A DNA stretch of 64,000 bases, taken from NCBI GenBank assembly GCA_030835135.1, contig JAUQWO010000046.1, positions 1 through 64,000 of the forward strand, given 5' to 3'. Numbering within the stretch: the stretch's first letter is position 1; each line of letters starts with the position of its first letter. Of this stretch, positions 40,281 to 60,026 are shown in pieces. The translations under genes and the position numbers were made by a program. This stretch comes from Bacteroidota bacterium. Its GTDB lineage: Bacteria; Bacteroidota; Ignavibacteria; UBA10030; UBA6906. A model generated the notes under the pieces. The model ran no database searches. It had not been told where the DNA came from and was given only the letters and a program-made list of their open reading frames with translations.

Positions 40281-40313
40281 AAAAAGCGGCTCCCGGATGG
40301 GAGCCGCTTTTTT
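40281..40313 (+). terminator. Strong bidirectional terminator
   Basis: A-tract, perfect GC-rich stem (AGCGGCTCCC / GGGAGCCGCT), 4-nt loop GGAT, T-tract. It serves both the DUF72 gene and the convergent gene ending at 40335. Confidence 0.9.
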
Positions 40314-40334: not shown

Positions 40335-41543
40335 TCAGGACGTTCCCTGACCACCACCGGAACGCGGACGAAAAGGTTTTCCCGGTCCGCTCCTCCGCGG
40401 TCCCGATGGCCGCGGCTTGAACGGACGCCCCGATCCTCCCGGAGGCCCGCTCTTTCTGAAATCCGGACGATCACCCTTCGGCGGACCACTCCTGCGGAAA
40501 TCAGGCCGGTCACCTTTCGGCGGACCACTCCTGCGGAAATCAGGCCGGTCGCCTTTCGGCGGACCACTCCGCTTGAAATCAGGACGGTCGCCTCGCGGCG
40601 GGCCACTCCGCTTGAAATCGGGGCGGCCACCACCAGCAGATCCGCTCTTCCTGAAATCCGGACGGCCACCCTGTGGCGGACCACTCCTGCGGAACTCAGG
40701 ACGACCACCTTCGGACGGTCCACTCTTCCGGTACTCCGGTCGGTCGCCACGCGGCGGGCCACTCTTCCGGAATACGGGACGGGTTCCCCCTCCCGGTCCG
40801 GTGCTCTTGAAATCCGGACGACCGGCTCCCGCTGATCCTCCCTTTCGAAAATCAGGCCGGCCTTCCCGGGATGGACCACTCTTGCGGAATCCGGGGCGAC
40901 CACCCTCCGAAGAACCACCTTTGCGATACTCGGGACGGTCTCCCCGTGGCGGTCCACTCTTCCGGAACTCGGGACGACCACTGCCCGTCGGCGCCGGCTT
41001 CCGGTACACCGGACCATGGCCGTGCGACCCGCCATGATCGGACACCGGTGCACCGCCGGGGCGCAACCACTTCACGAACGAACCCTGGAATTCATATGCC
41101 TCGGCCGTTGGCGCCAGGTTCTCCGTCACCGGCGTGCGCCACATATCGCGCGCCATGGAGGGGGTGCTTTCGCCCTTCCGGAGCACGCGTTCACGGTAGG
41201 TCTTCTTCCAGAGCGTGTGCCCGAGTTCCTCGACCAGGATCGCATGCGCACCGGACCGGAATGCACTCAGGAATCCCTTCATGTACGATGTGTCCTCTTT
41301 CCCCTGCACGAGGAGCAACACCCGTGATGGAAGAAAGCTGTACGCCTGGATCTCGAAGGCGTGCGCGACAGCGGCTTCCCGGAGCATGCTCAACGCCTTC
41401 AACACCCGTTCGCGCGTCGTGAAGACGGGTTTGTCTTCGGATACTTCGAGCGTGATCGTATACCGATGACGTCCGCGATAATCGAACCGCGGACGCGGTT
41501 CCTCCCCTGCGCTGCGCAAGTGCATCACATCAGTGGTCGCCAT
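40335..41543 (-). CDS. RAYT/IS200-like transposase-derived protein with basic repeat tail
   Basis: 402 aa. Residues about 20-165 follow the Y1/REP-associated tyrosine transposase (RAYT) layout: RYTITLEVSEDKPVFTTRERV, EIQAYSFLPSRVLLLVQG, YMKGFLSAFRSGA, TLWKKTYRERVLRKGES. The metal-binding H-x-H expected in the 'MPxHVHLL' position reads PSRVLLL, so the HUH site is lost, while a Tyr remains in TYRERVL. From about residue 185 the protein is a basic, proline/glycine-rich tail of about 14 tandem 13-residue units (RPDFRRSGPPKGD consensus). It looks like a domesticated, probably non-transposing nucleic-acid-binding protein. It follows the SDR gene by 3 bp. Confidence 0.7.
   Translation of the reverse strand: MATTDVMHLRSAGEEPRPRFDYRGRHRYTITLEVSEDKPVFTTRERVLKALSMLREAAVAHAFEIQAYSFLPSRVLLLVQGKEDTSYMKGFLSAFRSGAHAILVEELGHTLWKKTYRERVLRKGESTPSMARDMWRTPVTENLAPTAEAYEFQGSFVKWLRPGGAPVSDHGGSHGHGPVYRKPAPTGSGRPEFRKSGPPRGDRPEYRKGGSSEGGRPGFRKSGPSREGRPDFRKGGSAGAGRPDFKSTGPGGGTRPVFRKSGPPRGDRPEYRKSGPSEGGRPEFRRSGPPQGGRPDFRKSGSAGGGRPDFKRSGPPRGDRPDFKRSGPPKGDRPDFRRSGPPKGDRPDFRRSGPPKGDRPDFRKSGPPGGSGRPFKPRPSGPRRSGPGKPFRPRSGGGQGTS
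40415..40990 (-). repeat. Tandem 39-bp repeats coding for a 13-residue unit
   Basis: About 14 in-frame copies of a 39-bp unit in the 3' half of the RAYT-like gene. Units nearest the 3' end (about 40460-40600) are almost identical, while 5' units diverge, suggesting recent expansion at the 3' side. Each unit encodes RP[DE][FY]R[KR]SGPP-x-G-D/G. Confidence 0.85.
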
Positions 41544-41546
41544 AGG

Positions 41547-42347
41547 TCAGAAGAGTCCCTTCAGGAGGCCGCCATCCACACTGATGGTGGCCCCGGTGAT
41601 ATAGCTCGCGCGTTCGGACCCGAGAAAGACGATCATGTTCGCCAGTTCCTCGGGTTCACCGTAACGCTGTAATGGAATATCGCGCGACTGCTTTGCGAAG
41701 AAGTCATCGAGTGAGATCCCCGCCTCCTTCGCGCGCGACGTGCCGATCTGCTCCATGCGGGCGGTCCGCATAAACCCCGGTGCGACGCTGTTCACCAGGA
41801 TGCCATCCTTCGCATACTGGGAGGCCAGCACGCGTGAGAGTCCCAGGATGCCGGGACGGATCGACGAGGAGATGATCAGATCGTTGATCGGTTGCTTCGC
41901 GGCGATCGAGGTGATGTTGACGATGCGTCCCCAGTGCCGCTTCTGCATGTGCGGAAGGACGGCGCGGATCATCCGCACCGTGCTCATCAGCGTCAGGGCC
42001 ACACCGTTCTCCCATGTCGCATCATCCAGGTCCGGGAACGTTCCCACCGGAGGCCCCCCCGCGTTGGTGACCAGGATGTCGATCCGTCCGAACACCTTCA
42101 CCGCACGTGCCACGACAGCAGTGATCTGCCGGGGTTTGGTCAGGTCCGCAACGATGGGGACCACCTGAACGACATGATCGCCGGCGGCCATCCGGATCTC
42201 CTCGGCCGCAGCCTGGAGGGCTTTCTTCTGACGTGAACAGATCACCACATGGGCCCCCTCGCGGGCGAATCCCAATGCCGCAGCTTTGCCCAACCCCTGA
42301 CTGGCAGCACACACAAGCGCAACACGACCACGAAGTCCGAGATCCAT
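41547..42347 (-). CDS. SDR-family oxidoreductase lacking the usual YxxxK
   Basis: 266 aa. Classical short-chain dehydrogenase fold: NAD(P)-binding ALVCAASQGLGKAAA, VADLT, LVTNAGGPPVG, GRIVNITSIAAKQP with the catalytic Ser, PGFMRT, and the C-terminal GATISVDGGLLKG. At the usual Tyr-xxx-Lys position the sequence reads SSSIRPGILGLSR, i.e. Ser and Arg. A group of FabG-like SDRs with S...R is known, so this is likely a natural variant rather than a sequencing error. Substrate unknown. Probably co-transcribed with the RAYT-like gene, 3 bp downstream. Confidence 0.85.
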   Translation of the reverse strand: MDLGLRGRVALVCAASQGLGKAAALGFAREGAHVVICSRQKKALQAAAEEIRMAAGDHVVQVVPIVADLTKPRQITAVVARAVKVFGRIDILVTNAGGPPVGTFPDLDDATWENGVALTLMSTVRMIRAVLPHMQKRHWGRIVNITSIAAKQPINDLIISSSIRPGILGLSRVLASQYAKDGILVNSVAPGFMRTARMEQIGTSRAKEAGISLDDFFAKQSRDIPLQRYGEPEELANMIVFLGSERASYITGATISVDGGLLKGLF

Positions 42348-42443
42348 TGAGGTCCCTTCGGGACAATGAAGAATGAAGAAGCTGTCATGAAGAGAGAAGA
42401 GTTCTTCCCTTCTCAGGTTGTCACAGAACCCTTGACCGTCGCG

Positions 42444-43028
42444 TCACTCCATCATGCGGAGCATGCCCTGGATGCCGCTGCGGATCATCATGACCGCGAT
42501 GCCACAGAGGAAGAGGGCGGCAACCTTCGCGATCGCCTTGGCGCCCGCCTCGCGGAGGACCCGCGTCATGAGCCCGGCGCGGTCGAACACTAACCAGACG
42601 ATGACCATATTGGTCAGCAGCGAGATCACGGCCCACACATACCCGTAGGAGTTCACCAGCACCAGGATCGTGGTGAGCCCGGCAGGTCCCATGATGAGCG
42701 GTATCCCGATCGGGACCACGCCCACCCGCGCCCCGGGGAGCCGCTTCAGTTCGTGCGAGAAGAGCAGGTCATTCACCGCGAGCACGAGCAGGACGATACC
42801 GCCTCCCACCCGGAAATCATGTTCCGTGATCCCGAGAAAGCCGAACAGCAGTTTCCCGGCGACGAGGAACACGAGAGAGATGCCGAATGCCGTGAGTGTC
42901 GCTTCCGCGGCGAGGGTACGCCGGGCACTGTCGCTCATGCCTTCCGTCAGCCCCACATAGAGCGGCAGAACGCCGAACACGTCAATGGCAACGAAGAGCG
43001 GGATGAATGCCTGAAAGAAGATGTCCAT
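42444..43028 (-). CDS. MarC-family (UPF0056) inner-membrane protein
   Basis: 194 aa with six predicted transmembrane helices. Family features: FIPLFVAIDVFGVLPLYVGLT at the N-terminus, RVGGGIVLLVLAVNDLL, VVPIGIPLIMGPAGLTTILVL and the final RSGIQGML. The family has no established transport substrate despite its historic 'multiple antibiotic resistance' name. It follows the 87-aa gene by 30 bp and is probably transcribed from the promoter at 43378-43408. Confidence 0.9.
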   Translation of the reverse strand: MDIFFQAFIPLFVAIDVFGVLPLYVGLTEGMSDSARRTLAAEATLTAFGISLVFLVAGKLLFGFLGITEHDFRVGGGIVLLVLAVNDLLFSHELKRLPGARVGVVPIGIPLIMGPAGLTTILVLVNSYGYVWAVISLLTNMVIVWLVFDRAGLMTRVLREAGAKAIAKVAALFLCGIAVMMIRSGIQGMLRMME

Positions 43029-43058: not shown

Positions 43059-43322
43059 TCAGATCGCGATGCCCTTTGCCTGCAGCGCGTCTTTGATCCG
43101 CTGGACCGCTTCCGCTTCCGGGATCTCAAGCCGTGCCATGGTGGTCTGAACGACGATCTCCAGAGGGTCTTTCCGGTTCGTCAGCCAGTGCCAGATGTTG
43201 TACCCGAGGCGATCGCGGTCGTGCGGCTCACTCACAGGAATGCCGCTCACCACGGCATACGCTATGGATTCGAGGGAGTCCGCAGGGCCGGGTTTCACCG
43301 GGGATGGTGCTTTCGTGGTCAT
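43059..43322 (-). CDS. Small hypothetical protein
   Basis: 87 aa, soluble, no recognised family. The stretch PHDRDRLGYNIWHWLTNRKDPLEI and the helical MARLEIPEAEAVQRIKDALQAKG suggest a small folded helical protein. Support for it being real: a canonical promoter 56 nt upstream and a start-to-stop position between that promoter and marC. Confidence 0.6.
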   Translation of the reverse strand: MTTKAPSPVKPGPADSLESIAYAVVSGIPVSEPHDRDRLGYNIWHWLTNRKDPLEIVVQTTMARLEIPEAEAVQRIKDALQAKGIAI

Positions 43323-43377: not shown

Positions 43378-43408
43378 GCAATATACGCATTCTCCGCGGG
43401 GTTTACAA
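43378..43408 (-). promoter_or_regulatory. -33/-7 promoter of the small protein-marC unit
   Basis: Minus-strand TTG (43406-43408), 20-nt spacer, TATATTGC (43378-43385). It overlaps the stop codon of the patatin gene upstream. Confidence 0.65.
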
Positions 43409-46171
43409 TTGGTAGCCGAGCATGACATACGCCATGAAGGGCCCTTGCTGCACCGGCTGATCGGGGAGGTCGGACGTGAAATAGAACGCCTTTCCGACAC
43501 CGAAGACCGCCGGACCAACGGGTGTGGCGAACGCAAGTTCCACGCCAACCCCATGGAGCAGTGAACTGAACTTGATCTCCTCGGGTACGGCCGAGATGGT
43601 CCCGAGATCGTATCGGGCCCGGACATACGTGTCGAAGAGCAATTGGATGGGAAGTTTGTAGCGCACCTCCATGTTCATCAGCACGAGCTGACGACCGCGG
43701 CGGTCATCCTCCCGCAGGCCGAAGAACGAGTCGCGCCCACCCAGCCGGAACTGCTGCGCCAGCGGCATGGTGTTGTCCGCAAACCCCAGCGTGAAGCGGG
43801 GATGAAAGGTCAGCGATCGCCCCCAGCTGGCATAGTTCTCATACATCGCCTGCAGCGCGTTGTACCCCACCTGACTGCCGAGTCCTTCGAGCGCGAATTC
43901 ATACGACATCCGGAAGCCGATGCCCTTCGTGGGGAACGGATAGGCATCCTTGGTATCCACCAGTGTCGCTAGCCGGACGATCGCAAGACGATACCGTTCA
44001 TCGACCCCGGGGAGGTCACGGAGGTTCACGAGACGGATATTCTGCCAGAGGAATTCCGCGGTCGCGTTGCCCAGACGCTCCAACAGGCTGCCGAACGATA
44101 CCGAGAAGCCATAGCGGATATCGCGATACTCCCCGAGGAGCTCGCGGTCCCACCGGTTCGGATGCGTCTTCGGCGTGTTGCCATACGCATAGCTGTCCCA
44201 CGTGCGGTGAAACACACTCACCCCGAGCGTGAGATAGGTGTTGAACAACCTCTTCATATTGAAATCGAGCGTCGCATCGCCGTTCCGCTGGCCACCGGCA
44301 AGCTGGAACCCGAGCTGCATGCCCGTCCCCTGCCAGTTCTCATCGCGGACATCCAGCATACCCTGAAGCTGACGTTCATCATCGGCACGCAATCCGATCC
44401 GTACGAGCTGCGACGGCCGTTCCTTGATACGGATGGTGAGGACGATCTCTTTCGTGAGGGAGGTAAGCTCGAGATAAACGTACTCGAACAATGTCGTCCC
44501 CGAGAGTTGCGACAGGCCGCGCCGGGCCTTGTCCAGCTGGAAGACCTCACCGGGGACCAGCGGAAATTCCTGCATCACGAACGCATCCTGCGTTCTGACC
44601 CCGCCTTCGACGTCGATGCGCGTGATGATCCCCTCATCGAGCGTCAGCGACAATGCACCACTCGATCCGTCGAATGACACGGAGTCGATATGCGCGAGCG
44701 AGAACCCTTCCTTCCGGTAGAGCCGGGTCAGGCCCTCCAGCGCGCCGGTCGTTGCGGCATGGTTCAGGACGCGTCCGAGCAGCGGCGCAAACACACTCCG
44801 GAGGTGCGCATCCGCAAGGAGCCTGTTGCCCGTGAACGACACAGAGCGGAGCGTCGGATTCGGGACGGTCCGCACTGACAGCCGCGTCCCCGCCGGACCT
44901 CGCTGCACATCTGCCCACACGCTGTCGAAGTACCCGCTGGTATACACCTTCCCGAGGAACCCTTCGAGATCGTACACCGGCACCGGGCCAACACCGGCGG
45001 GCAGCGTCCAGTGGGCCCACACCGAATCCGGTATCGTCTGATCGCCTCGTTCAATGGTGACCGGCGCCGGCAGCACCATGCCGCCAGCCACCGCAGCCAG
45101 ACTGTCACTGCGGCGCGCATAGAGATCCAGGATCTCCCGGATCTGACGCTCCACGGTCTCATCGCCCTTGTCGATCAGTGAATCAAGTCCGTGGAAGGAC
45201 GTGGACAGGTGCCGCCCGATGTCCGGGGTGATGACGATATCGGCGTCCGCCATCTGCCGGTCATTCAGCCGCTTCATCATGATACCCATGATCTGATCGG
45301 CCGTCTGCCACGGTGCCTTCATCTCATCCACGGTGCGGAGACCGCTCGTGGAATTCACCGCGATGATGATATCGCATCCGGCGCTGCGCGCGATGTCCAC
45401 GGGGACGTTGGACACCAGGCCGCCGTCCACGAGGCGCATGCTGTCCTTCTCGATCGGACTGAACAGCAGCGGCACCGTCGCGCTGGCGCGCATGGCTTCC
45501 GCCAGAGAACCATCGCGCAGCACGACACGGTCGCCCGACACGAGATCGGTGGCAACGGCACGGAACGGGATCTTCAGGTGATCGAAATCCGGGAAGGGGT
45601 AATACAGCGCCTGCAGCATCCGCGCGCTGAGGAAATCGGTCAGTCGCTGGCCGGAGGACACCGCCGGAGGCAGGACGGGTTCCAGTCCTTCAAAACGAAT
45701 GGCGATGAAACTCCGGTCGTCAGCGAGCTTCTGATCGACAAAGAGTTGCGACCGCTGTGTCTCGTCGCCGAGACCGATCACTTCGTCCCAGTTGGTATGG
45801 ATCGCAAGGCTCTCCAGCTCCGCCACGGTATAGCCGGCGGCATACAACCCACCGATGATCGAGCCCATGCTCGTCGAGGCGATGAAATCGATAGGAATGC
45901 CATGCCGTTCGAGTGCCCGCAGGACCCCGATCTGGGCGGCACCGCGCGACCCACCCCCGCTCAGAACGAGTCCGACCTTCGGACGTTGCAGGGTCTTCTC
46001 GAGGAGCAGTCCGCGCTGGACGGTGAATGGGGGACGGAAGAGGGGGCGGAGCGTGAAGGTGGAATCGGCAGAGGACGCAACGCCGGGGAGCGCGGCAAGG
46101 AGGCAGAGCGTACAGACCATCAGCCGGCCGGCCGTGAGGAAGCGGCGGTATGCACCGATCGGATTGTGCAC
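43403..46171 (-). CDS. Patatin-like phospholipase fused to POTRA and Omp85 barrel
   Basis: 922 aa. Signal peptide (LCLLAALPGVASS), patatin domain at about 65-330 with oxyanion loop LSGGGSRGAAQIG, nucleophile Ser in FIASTSMGSIIGG and catalytic Asp in LVDGGLVSNVPVD, then POTRA-like modules (SVSFTGNRLLADAHLRSVF; LYRKEGFSLAHIDSV) and a C-terminal bacterial surface-antigen barrel (RLGGRDSFFGLREDDRRG, ending VMLGYQL). This is the architecture of type Vd/patatin outer-membrane proteins, widespread in Bacteroidota, in which the lipase is presented at the cell envelope. Catalytic residues are intact, so lipid acyl hydrolase activity is expected. It follows the NHL lipoprotein by 4 bp. Confidence 0.92.
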   Translation of the reverse strand: MHNPIGAYRRFLTAGRLMVCTLCLLAALPGVASSADSTFTLRPLFRPPFTVQRGLLLEKTLQRPKVGLVLSGGGSRGAAQIGVLRALERHGIPIDFIASTSMGSIIGGLYAAGYTVAELESLAIHTNWDEVIGLGDETQRSQLFVDQKLADDRSFIAIRFEGLEPVLPPAVSSGQRLTDFLSARMLQALYYPFPDFDHLKIPFRAVATDLVSGDRVVLRDGSLAEAMRASATVPLLFSPIEKDSMRLVDGGLVSNVPVDIARSAGCDIIIAVNSTSGLRTVDEMKAPWQTADQIMGIMMKRLNDRQMADADIVITPDIGRHLSTSFHGLDSLIDKGDETVERQIREILDLYARRSDSLAAVAGGMVLPAPVTIERGDQTIPDSVWAHWTLPAGVGPVPVYDLEGFLGKVYTSGYFDSVWADVQRGPAGTRLSVRTVPNPTLRSVSFTGNRLLADAHLRSVFAPLLGRVLNHAATTGALEGLTRLYRKEGFSLAHIDSVSFDGSSGALSLTLDEGIITRIDVEGGVRTQDAFVMQEFPLVPGEVFQLDKARRGLSQLSGTTLFEYVYLELTSLTKEIVLTIRIKERPSQLVRIGLRADDERQLQGMLDVRDENWQGTGMQLGFQLAGGQRNGDATLDFNMKRLFNTYLTLGVSVFHRTWDSYAYGNTPKTHPNRWDRELLGEYRDIRYGFSVSFGSLLERLGNATAEFLWQNIRLVNLRDLPGVDERYRLAIVRLATLVDTKDAYPFPTKGIGFRMSYEFALEGLGSQVGYNALQAMYENYASWGRSLTFHPRFTLGFADNTMPLAQQFRLGGRDSFFGLREDDRRGRQLVLMNMEVRYKLPIQLLFDTYVRARYDLGTISAVPEEIKFSSLLHGVGVELAFATPVGPAVFGVGKAFYFTSDLPDQPVQQGPFMAYVMLGYQL

Positions 46172-51248: not shown

Positions 51249-51351
51249 CCGTTGTAGGGGCGCAGCATGACGCCCCCTGCGATGAACCATCGGACACGTT
51301 GCCTGTCCGATCCTGCACGATACCGTTGTAGGGGCGCAGCATGCTGCGCCC
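51249..51351 (+). repeat. Pair of REP-like palindromic elements
   Basis: A 21-bp direct repeat, CCGTTGTAGGGGCGCAGCATG, at 51249-51269 and 51323-51343. The first forms a GGGGCG/CGCCCC stem (51257-51276); the second forms a perfect 20-bp palindrome (51332-51351) that ends just before the stop codon of the gene at 51354. The GTAGGGGC start is typical of REP-like elements found in many bacterial genomes. Confidence 0.75.
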
Positions 51352-57836: not shown

Positions 57837-60026
57837 ATGACGTTCCTCAATCCATTCATGCTGTTCGGGCTCCTGGCCGCCGCCATCCCGATCCTCCTGC
57901 ACCTCCTCAATCTCCGTAGGCTCAAGACCGTGGAGTTCAGTTCCCTGCGCTTTCTGCGGGAACTCCAGCGGACGCGCATGCGGAGGATCCGGTTGCGGCA
58001 GTGGATACTGCTTCTGCTGCGGACACTCCTGATCCTGTGCCTGGTGCTCGCCTTCTCGCGCCCGGCCCTGCAGGGATCCCTCGCGTCGCTGGGCGGTTCG
58101 TCTGCCCGTTCGGCGATCGTGCTGCTCATCGACGATTCGCCGTCCATGGGGCTCCGCAATGGCGGCGGCATCCTCTTCGATCAGGCGAAGGCCACCGCCC
58201 GCCGTATCATCGCGCTCGCACGTCCGGGCGATGAACTCCATGTACTGCCGCTCTCGTCAACGGCATCCGATGACCCGGGCCCCACGGCCGTCTCACCGCA
58301 GGAGGCCCTGCGCATCGTTGAGATGATGCAGCTCTCGAACAGGTTCACTCCCAACGCGGGCGCGCTCCGCCGTGCGATCCGCCAGACACGCGCCTCGTCC
58401 GCCGTGAACACTGAATTCTACCTCCTTTCCGATCTCCAGGGGACGACGTTCGCCCCCGATCCCGGCGCACAGAAGGAGCCCCCGGTCGATGCTGCGCACG
58501 TGCGGCTGTTCATCATTCCCTTCCAGCCGGACCACAGGGAGAATGCCGCGGTCATCGCCGCCACGGTCGAAAGCAGGATCCTGTCGCAGAACCGGCCCGT
58601 GAGTGTTCGGGCGATCATTCAGAATTTCGGCGATCGTCCTCTGCAGAACGCGGTCGCAAGCCTCTACATCGAAGGCACGCGTGTTGCGCAACAATCCGTC
58701 ACCGTCGCCCCGGGGGGCCGCACCGCGGTGGAACTCACCGGCGTGCCGAAACACCGCGGCATGCTCGGGTGCACCGTCCGTCTCGACGACGACGTCCTGG
58801 AGATCGACAACCGGTGGCATTTCGCCCTGGCGATCCCCGAGACCATCGCCGTGCTCGTTGCCGGCGACACCCCGGCGTCCACACGCTTTGCGACACTCGC
58901 GCTTTCGCTGGCCGGTGATTCTTCGGTGGCCGGACTCTTCCGCATCCGGCAGACCGCGGCGGAGCGACTGTTGAGTGCCGACATCGAGGGAACCGATGTG
59001 CTTCTGGTGAGTGCGGGTGGACAGTTGCAGCACGGGGCCGGCGAACGCATCGCTGCTGCCGTCCGGCTCGGCATGGGCCTCATGCTCTTCCCCGGTCCGG
59101 GCACCGATGCAGCCACGCTCTCACGGTCTCTGCTCCAGCCACTGGGGATCCCCGCCATCACGATCCCTGCGCCACGTCCGGACCAGGCCGCACCGTCAGG
59201 CTTCCTGCGCTTCGGCACGGTCGACATGTCGCATCCGGTGTTCAGTGGCATGTTCGAACACTCCGCAACGACGGCACCAGCACCGCCGGTGGAGTCGCCA
59301 CACATCACGGCTGCCGCCACGCTGACGCCGGGGCCGGCCGGCACCACCGTGATCGGCATGACCGATGGCAGGCCATTCCTTGTCGAATATCGCGCCGGCA
59401 CCGGGCGCATCATGATCTGTGCAGTCGATGCCGGGACGGCCTGGTCCGATCTTCCGGTGCGGGGGATCTTCCCGCCGCTCCTGCATCGTTCCATGGTGTA
59501 CCTCTCCACGACGTCGGCCACGGACACCGGTGCCCGCATCGGCGATCGGCTGACACTGTCGCTCCCCCGGGCATCCGGCGTTGCACGCCGCGAATTCGTG
59601 GTCATCGCGCCGGACGGCACCGAGGAACGTGTCATCCCGCAGGTCCGCGCAGGCGCGCTGGTCTTCACACCATCACCCGCGGAGATGCCGGGACTCTACG
59701 TCGTGCGTGATGCCCGGGCAGCCCGGTCCGGAACGTCGTCCGCCACGCTGCAGGCCGCCGCCGTCAACCCCCGGACGGAAGAATCCGATCTCGCGCCGGC
59801 AACGGCAGCGATGACCACATCGTGTGCTGCCTCCTGCGGCATCAACGACGACCGGTGCACCACCGTATACGATACCGGGGCATTGGAACGGACCGTAGGG
59901 GAAGCGCGCTACGGCGTCGAGTTGTGGCAGGCATTCCTGCTCATCGCGCTGGCCTGCGCTGCATTTGAAATGGTGATCGCACGAACAACACGCGCCACGG
60001 CGGAAGAAAGACCTCAGGATGCCTGA
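57837..60026 (+). CDS. BatA-domain membrane protein with vWA-like region
   Basis: 729 aa from the ATG at 57837, which begins the conserved BatA N-terminus (FLNPFMLFGLLAAAIPILLHLLNLRR), followed by a second helix (QWILLLLRTLLILCLVLAFSRPALQ). A von Willebrand A-like domain follows (AIVLLIDDSPSMGLRNGGG, with a D-x-S-x-S-like metal site reading DDSPS), then CARDB-like beta domains (VSVRAIIQNFGDRPLQNA) and a C-terminal transmembrane helix (AFLLIALACAAFEMVI). Family members in Bacteroidota are linked to aerotolerance operons, but function here is not proved. It overlaps hflX by 8 bp. Confidence 0.8.
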   Translation: MTFLNPFMLFGLLAAAIPILLHLLNLRRLKTVEFSSLRFLRELQRTRMRRIRLRQWILLLLRTLLILCLVLAFSRPALQGSLASLGGSSARSAIVLLIDDSPSMGLRNGGGILFDQAKATARRIIALARPGDELHVLPLSSTASDDPGPTAVSPQEALRIVEMMQLSNRFTPNAGALRRAIRQTRASSAVNTEFYLLSDLQGTTFAPDPGAQKEPPVDAAHVRLFIIPFQPDHRENAAVIAATVESRILSQNRPVSVRAIIQNFGDRPLQNAVASLYIEGTRVAQQSVTVAPGGRTAVELTGVPKHRGMLGCTVRLDDDVLEIDNRWHFALAIPETIAVLVAGDTPASTRFATLALSLAGDSSVAGLFRIRQTAAERLLSADIEGTDVLLVSAGGQLQHGAGERIAAAVRLGMGLMLFPGPGTDAATLSRSLLQPLGIPAITIPAPRPDQAAPSGFLRFGTVDMSHPVFSGMFEHSATTAPAPPVESPHITAAATLTPGPAGTTVIGMTDGRPFLVEYRAGTGRIMICAVDAGTAWSDLPVRGIFPPLLHRSMVYLSTTSATDTGARIGDRLTLSLPRASGVARREFVVIAPDGTEERVIPQVRAGALVFTPSPAEMPGLYVVRDARAARSGTSSATLQAAAVNPRTEESDLAPATAAMTTSCAASCGINDDRCTTVYDTGALERTVGEARYGVELWQAFLLIALACAAFEMVIARTTRATAEERPQDA

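Follow-up and report, generated by a model that had tools for sequence, protein, structure and literature searches.

The gene at positions 40335..41543 (minus strand) of the studied window, i.e. of the whole 64,000-nucleotide stretch analysed here, is a single ORF with an ATG start that encodes a 402-aa catalytically dead RAYT-derived protein, further referred to as dRAYT. We consider it probable that dRAYT is a maintained, vertically inherited, single-copy pseudo-RAYT. Both cutting motifs are lost, yet the gene is kept at the same locus under selection and its product carries a basic tail, from which we infer that the protein most likely binds structured nucleic acid and does not cut it. We rate dRAYT as a pseudoenzyme branch of RAYTs.

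Family assignment and loss of catalytic residues

The NCBIfam profile NF047646 (REP_Tyr_transpos) matches residues 24–152 of dRAYT with E-value 1e-9 and 38.5 bits, which falls short of the curated cut-off of 80 bits. It also matches all 13 rows of alignment A1, and a profile comparison with the sequence of 4er8 gave E-value 5e-5; both speak for homology by sequence. Pfam yielded no matches for dRAYT and for one orthologue, no match was found in PHROGs, and Rfam and tRNA scans over the window were empty. The protein has one match in its own genome and hence is encoded by a single-copy gene.

Orthologues were found in 13 of the 21 genomes of the family, the genome of the window included. The 14th row of the orthologous set comes from a record labelled Bradyrhizobiaceae with the same locus. 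This record (L053, PQAH01000157.1, titled Bradyrhizobiaceae bacterium FeB_22) contains an Ignavibacteriota locus in full synteny and is probably a mislabelled or mis-binned MAG. Nearly all orthologues thus belong to one Ignavibacteriota family. Across 395 genomes sampled from the whole phylum, of which three belong to this family, dRAYT had no match outside the family at E-value 1e-20.

The former HUH site (residues 72–77, 41313..41330, minus strand) reads P-S-R-V-L-L, followed by one more Leu, so that R74 and L76 stand in place of the two His. The former catalytic tyrosine, which by alignment corresponds to Y115 in the TnpA-REP of E. coli, is D133 (41145..41147, minus strand): the segment is RDMWRTPV vs RYILNNPV of intact relatives, and the RAYT tyrosine motif Y-[IV]-x-x-N-P is gone. 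None of the 14 orthologous rows keeps either His (the replacements are R/T/Q/K and L/T/A/V, respectively) or the Tyr (replaced by D/E/Q/T/A/S). A set of close RAYTs within the same order retains the two His as well as the Tyr in 13 of 13 rows. The catalytically dead rows form one clade with support 100/99.

Predicted fold and candidate binding face

The structure of residues 1–161 was predicted by AlphaFold2 using the alignment of 13 orthologues (mean pLDDT 86.7, pTM 0.79). The top PDB match of the model is 4er8, the structure of TnpA-REP with a REP hairpin, at VIA Z 16.1 and Foldseek E-value 1e-7 (140 residues aligned, rmsd 3.2), followed by TnpA of IS608 and ISDra2 with Z 10.9–13.3. Based on the model and the 4er8 match, the conserved Y1-fold domain was delimited to residues 19–157 (41073..41489, minus strand).

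The first-pass annotation of this DNA had described the N-terminal half as a RAYT/IS200 layout with a destroyed HUH site, and had proposed that the host retained a former transposase. The profile match and the 4er8 match bear out the layout, the predicted structure does have the Y1/HUH fold, and both His are indeed absent. The loss of the tyrosine had been missed. Retention by the host holds as well, given that all 14 rows lack HUH and Tyr and are syntenic, with dN/dS of 0.08–0.13 in close pairs.

TnpA-REP contacts the GTAG of the REP from beta-1, around beta-4 and from the C-terminus, and its contact positions 95, 100 and 104 are partly common to several groups (PMC8266576). The most constrained stretch of dRAYT, the beta-1 block R19–E34 (RFxYRGxHRYxITL; 41442..41489, minus strand), falls in the first of these regions. 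In the beta-4 block W112–K123 (WKKTYRERVLRK; 41175..41210, minus strand) E118 and R122 align with positions 100 and 104 of TnpA-REP and are invariant in the dead clade, so that two of the three shared contact positions are kept. The third one, Q95, is replaced, and the specificity for the ancestral REP has therefore probably been lost. Thirty positions are constrained solely in the dead clade or are constrained there to another residue; they include R19, H26, R27, Y28, K89, R96, R119 and K123, and many are basic or aromatic. As far as sequence conservation can tell, such a pattern is consistent with a binding face that outlasted the loss of cutting and became re-specialised.

C-terminal tail

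The fold is followed by a region rich in R, G, P, S and K with a net charge of +38 over residues 157–402. It contains a tandem array of 14 units, each 39 bp long and encoding a RPDFRKSGPPKGD-like 13-mer (residues 190–371, 40431..40976, minus strand; TRF score 498) with the consensus RP[DE]F[RK][KR]SGPPxG[DG], which places F or Y every 13 residues, and ends with a non-repeat basic stretch (residues 372–402, 40338..40430, minus strand). Differences between the units are concentrated at codon position 3 (679 vs 271 and 289 at the other two), and the share of synonymous differences is the highest of the six frames in the annotated one (0.457), the next being the wobble-matched antisense frame (0.400). 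Both observations support translation of the tail in the annotated frame. A single-sequence prediction of the full-length protein had pLDDT 44 and gave no structure for the tail.

The 14-unit array was found only in this species, the assemblies of both congeners breaking at the locus. Elsewhere in the genome the array is absent; besides the array, the motif as DNA matched at three places, each time as a lone copy. Orthologues with complete C-termini have tails of 8–47 residues after the fold, mostly R/P-rich, which suggests that a basic tail as such is probably old. A different tandem repeat, of about 27 bp, occupies the last ~100 bases of one congeneric locus (L092, at the end of contig C326 of G002), after the DUF72 gene.

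The earlier description of the tail as about 14 copies of a 13-residue unit proved exact (14 units of 13 aa each), and the array reads in frame, as seen from the excess at the third codon position. Its label "RGG-like" was loose: the translated tail contains no RGG triplet. The proposal as a whole, a former transposase turned nucleic-acid-binding protein with such a tail, stands with respect to the transposase origin and the loss of catalysis, and nucleic-acid binding would be plausible. The idea that the repeat tail defines the protein found no support, given that complete relatives carry short tails with no array. A chaperone or condensate role, suggested by composition, is speculation.

Locus and neighbouring genes

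At most loci a patatin/Omp85 gene and a gene for an 87-aa protein are located upstream of dRAYT. In the window these are a patatin/POTRA/Omp85 protein (43403..46171, minus strand), which is a conserved upstream neighbour in most relatives, and an 87-aa protein whose family was not recognised (43059..43322, minus strand). Between the latter and dRAYT there are two genes on the same strand (41547–43028), for a MarC family membrane protein (42444..43028, minus strand) and for an SDR oxidoreductase (41547..42347, minus strand); these are variable modules, and relatives have both, one or none of them. The SDR gene ends 3 bp upstream of dRAYT, and the two probably share one transcript. On the other side dRAYT faces a DUF72 gene and an S24/LexA-like gene, with a PAS-type kinase gene intervening in some relatives. 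The dRAYT and DUF72 genes are convergent. Between them lies a perfect inverted repeat of 14 bp flanked by A/T (40281..40312), which looks like a bidirectional terminator; a consensus scan did not flag it. The genus g11 retains the 87-aa gene, with outer flanks that are different.

The 87-aa protein has neither Pfam nor PHROG matches, and its gene is conserved at the locus family-wide. It is present at every dRAYT locus, and the many newly invariant residues of dRAYT could form an interface; on these grounds the Y1/ferredoxin-like fold could serve as an adaptor for a protein partner such as this neighbour, with nucleic-acid binding gone. We regard such an adaptor as possible but unlikely, since the 87-aa gene is also found without dRAYT, the invariant residues include many basic or aromatic ones located where TnpA-REP binds nucleic acid, and the tails of most orthologues are basic.

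Canonical RAYT and REPs in the same genome

A search with Pfam Y1_Tnp had indicated that there was no Y1 transposase in the genome. This was a false negative: NF047646 finds a RAYT (L143) on contig C13 of the same genome, G000, at 58959-59405 (minus strand), with intact HUH (PDHMH) and the tyrosine of Y-I-x-x-N-P. Three GTAG palindromes lie beside it. The GTAG...CTAC palindrome is GTAGGGGCGGTGCATGCACCGCCCCTAC, with the variant CAGCATGCTG; it occurs in dozens of copies in the genome, and exact 11-mer matches number 42 vs 16 for the reversed control. The palindromes (L123-L142) are often closely spaced in groups, several of them at contig ends. Thus the genome carries a canonical REP system apart from dRAYT.

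The co-occurrence of this system with dRAYT, along with the preservation of E118 and R122, would be expected if dRAYT were an accessory factor or repressor of the REPs of its own genome that binds the GTAG palindromes in competition with the intact RAYT. Several observations make this rather improbable. Each relative searched has 0–3 copies of this REP class, and most of these relatives still have dRAYT; given that dRAYT is far more widespread than the repeats, binding them is unlikely to have been its original role. Q95 is lost. The window contains two palindrome copies, at 51252 and 51326, so that the nearest one is ~9.7 kb from dRAYT, and within 39.9–43.5 kb only the terminator-like repeat and one weak palindrome were found, so that dRAYT is not flanked by REPs. 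The loss of Q95, the missing flanking REPs, the relatives that have dRAYT and lack this REP class, and the three genomes without the gene (see below) were also counted against dRAYT as a non-cutting binder.

Inheritance and selection

The gene tree of dRAYT mirrors that of a neighbouring gene, as expected for vertical inheritance. The frame is open in every orthologue found. The dN/dS ratio, measurable solely in three close pairs, all from one genus, equals 0.124, 0.129 and 0.084, which indicates purifying selection. The gene is truly missing at the locus in three genomes (G006, G013 and G014), so that it is dispensable and can be lost. The absence of the gene from the two congeners G001 and G002 does not speak for loss: at one end of the gap their contigs stop within the 87-aa or the SDR gene, and at the other end they reach only slightly beyond DUF72.

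The absence in three genomes, as well as the disappearance of both catalytic motifs and the restriction of the array to one species, are what one would see in a decaying RAYT pseudogene with a junk tail expanded by slippage. Such decay is nevertheless very improbable in view of the open frames, the dN/dS of about 0.1 and the conserved synteny; moreover, it would not yield new invariant positions, of which there are about 30. A new enzymatic activity on the Y1 fold, e.g. a Thg1-like one, can practically be dismissed: Thg1 chains appeared in the fold search at Z 7.7–8.6, a generic level (below 9 vs 16 for TnpA-REP), and the Thg1 active site needs Asp, which the invariant columns of the dead clade lack.

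Discussion

The likely history of dRAYT, a pseudo-RAYT that binds and does not cut, would be as follows. The metal-binding HUH and the nucleophilic Tyr of a RAYT (TnpA-REP) ancestor are both gone clade-wide, and the Y1 fold, by prediction, was kept. The protein should then no longer be able to cut or join DNA, whereas the face for hairpins or single strands (the beta-1 and beta-4 regions and helix C) may have been retained and reshaped. It would bind structured nucleic acid, either a ssDNA hairpin or RNA, leaving it uncut, and would probably act as a regulator or a protective factor. The basic tail, in most relatives a short R/P-rich stretch, has grown to 14 repeats in this species and could add non-specific electrostatic affinity or multivalency.

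With TnpA-REP/RAYT (E. coli 4er8, NF047646) dRAYT shares the Y1 fold, the overall layout, single copy and vertical inheritance, as well as the conserved W112, the acidic residue at 118, R122 and P138–V139 (dRAYT numbering). It differs in having no HUH, catalytic Tyr or flanking REPs, in scoring below the NF047646 cut-off, and in possessing a basic C-terminal tail and its own set of invariant residues. The similarity to TnpA of IS200/IS605 elements (IS608, ISDra2) is in the fold (Z 10.9–13.3); unlike these elements, dRAYT is present in one copy in the same neighbourhood in relatives, without catalytic residues and IS ends. The tail resembles RGG/RG-box and other Arg-rich disordered RNA-binding tails in being low-complexity, rich in Arg, Gly, Pro and Ser, and provided with spaced aromatics, but it lacks RGG, and its unit RP[DE]F[RK][KR]SGPPxG is confined to this species.

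RAYTs have been termed the first domesticated prokaryotic transposases (PMC8266576). A literature search, which missed some key papers, found neither a conserved RAYT described as catalytically dead nor anything specific on Arg/Gly-rich bacterial tails. To our knowledge, described RAYTs keep their nuclease residues.

A separate degenerate RAYT-like clade with support 100/100 was observed in genus g49 of family f6 (L089, L103 and L104 from genomes G076, G078 and G075, respectively). In these proteins the first HUH His is replaced by Arg (R-x-H), the catalytic Tyr by His, and the NP motif is lost. This branch is independent of the dRAYT clade and belongs to another family of the same order. Two independent clades tentatively suggest, at somewhat less than even odds in our judgement, that loss of catalysis with the hairpin-binding fold kept is a repeatable route from RAYTs to host nucleic-acid-binding factors.

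In the main HuH survey, a lack of HuH or Y was taken to mean that a protein is probably non-functional, and such proteins were excluded (PMC6006769); the dRAYT clade shows that this rule can be wrong. If the route is indeed repeatable, surveys that discard sequences without HuH or Y as non-functional miss both clades. A dead clade under selection separates the binding role of RAYTs from cutting and provides a natural binding-only comparison.
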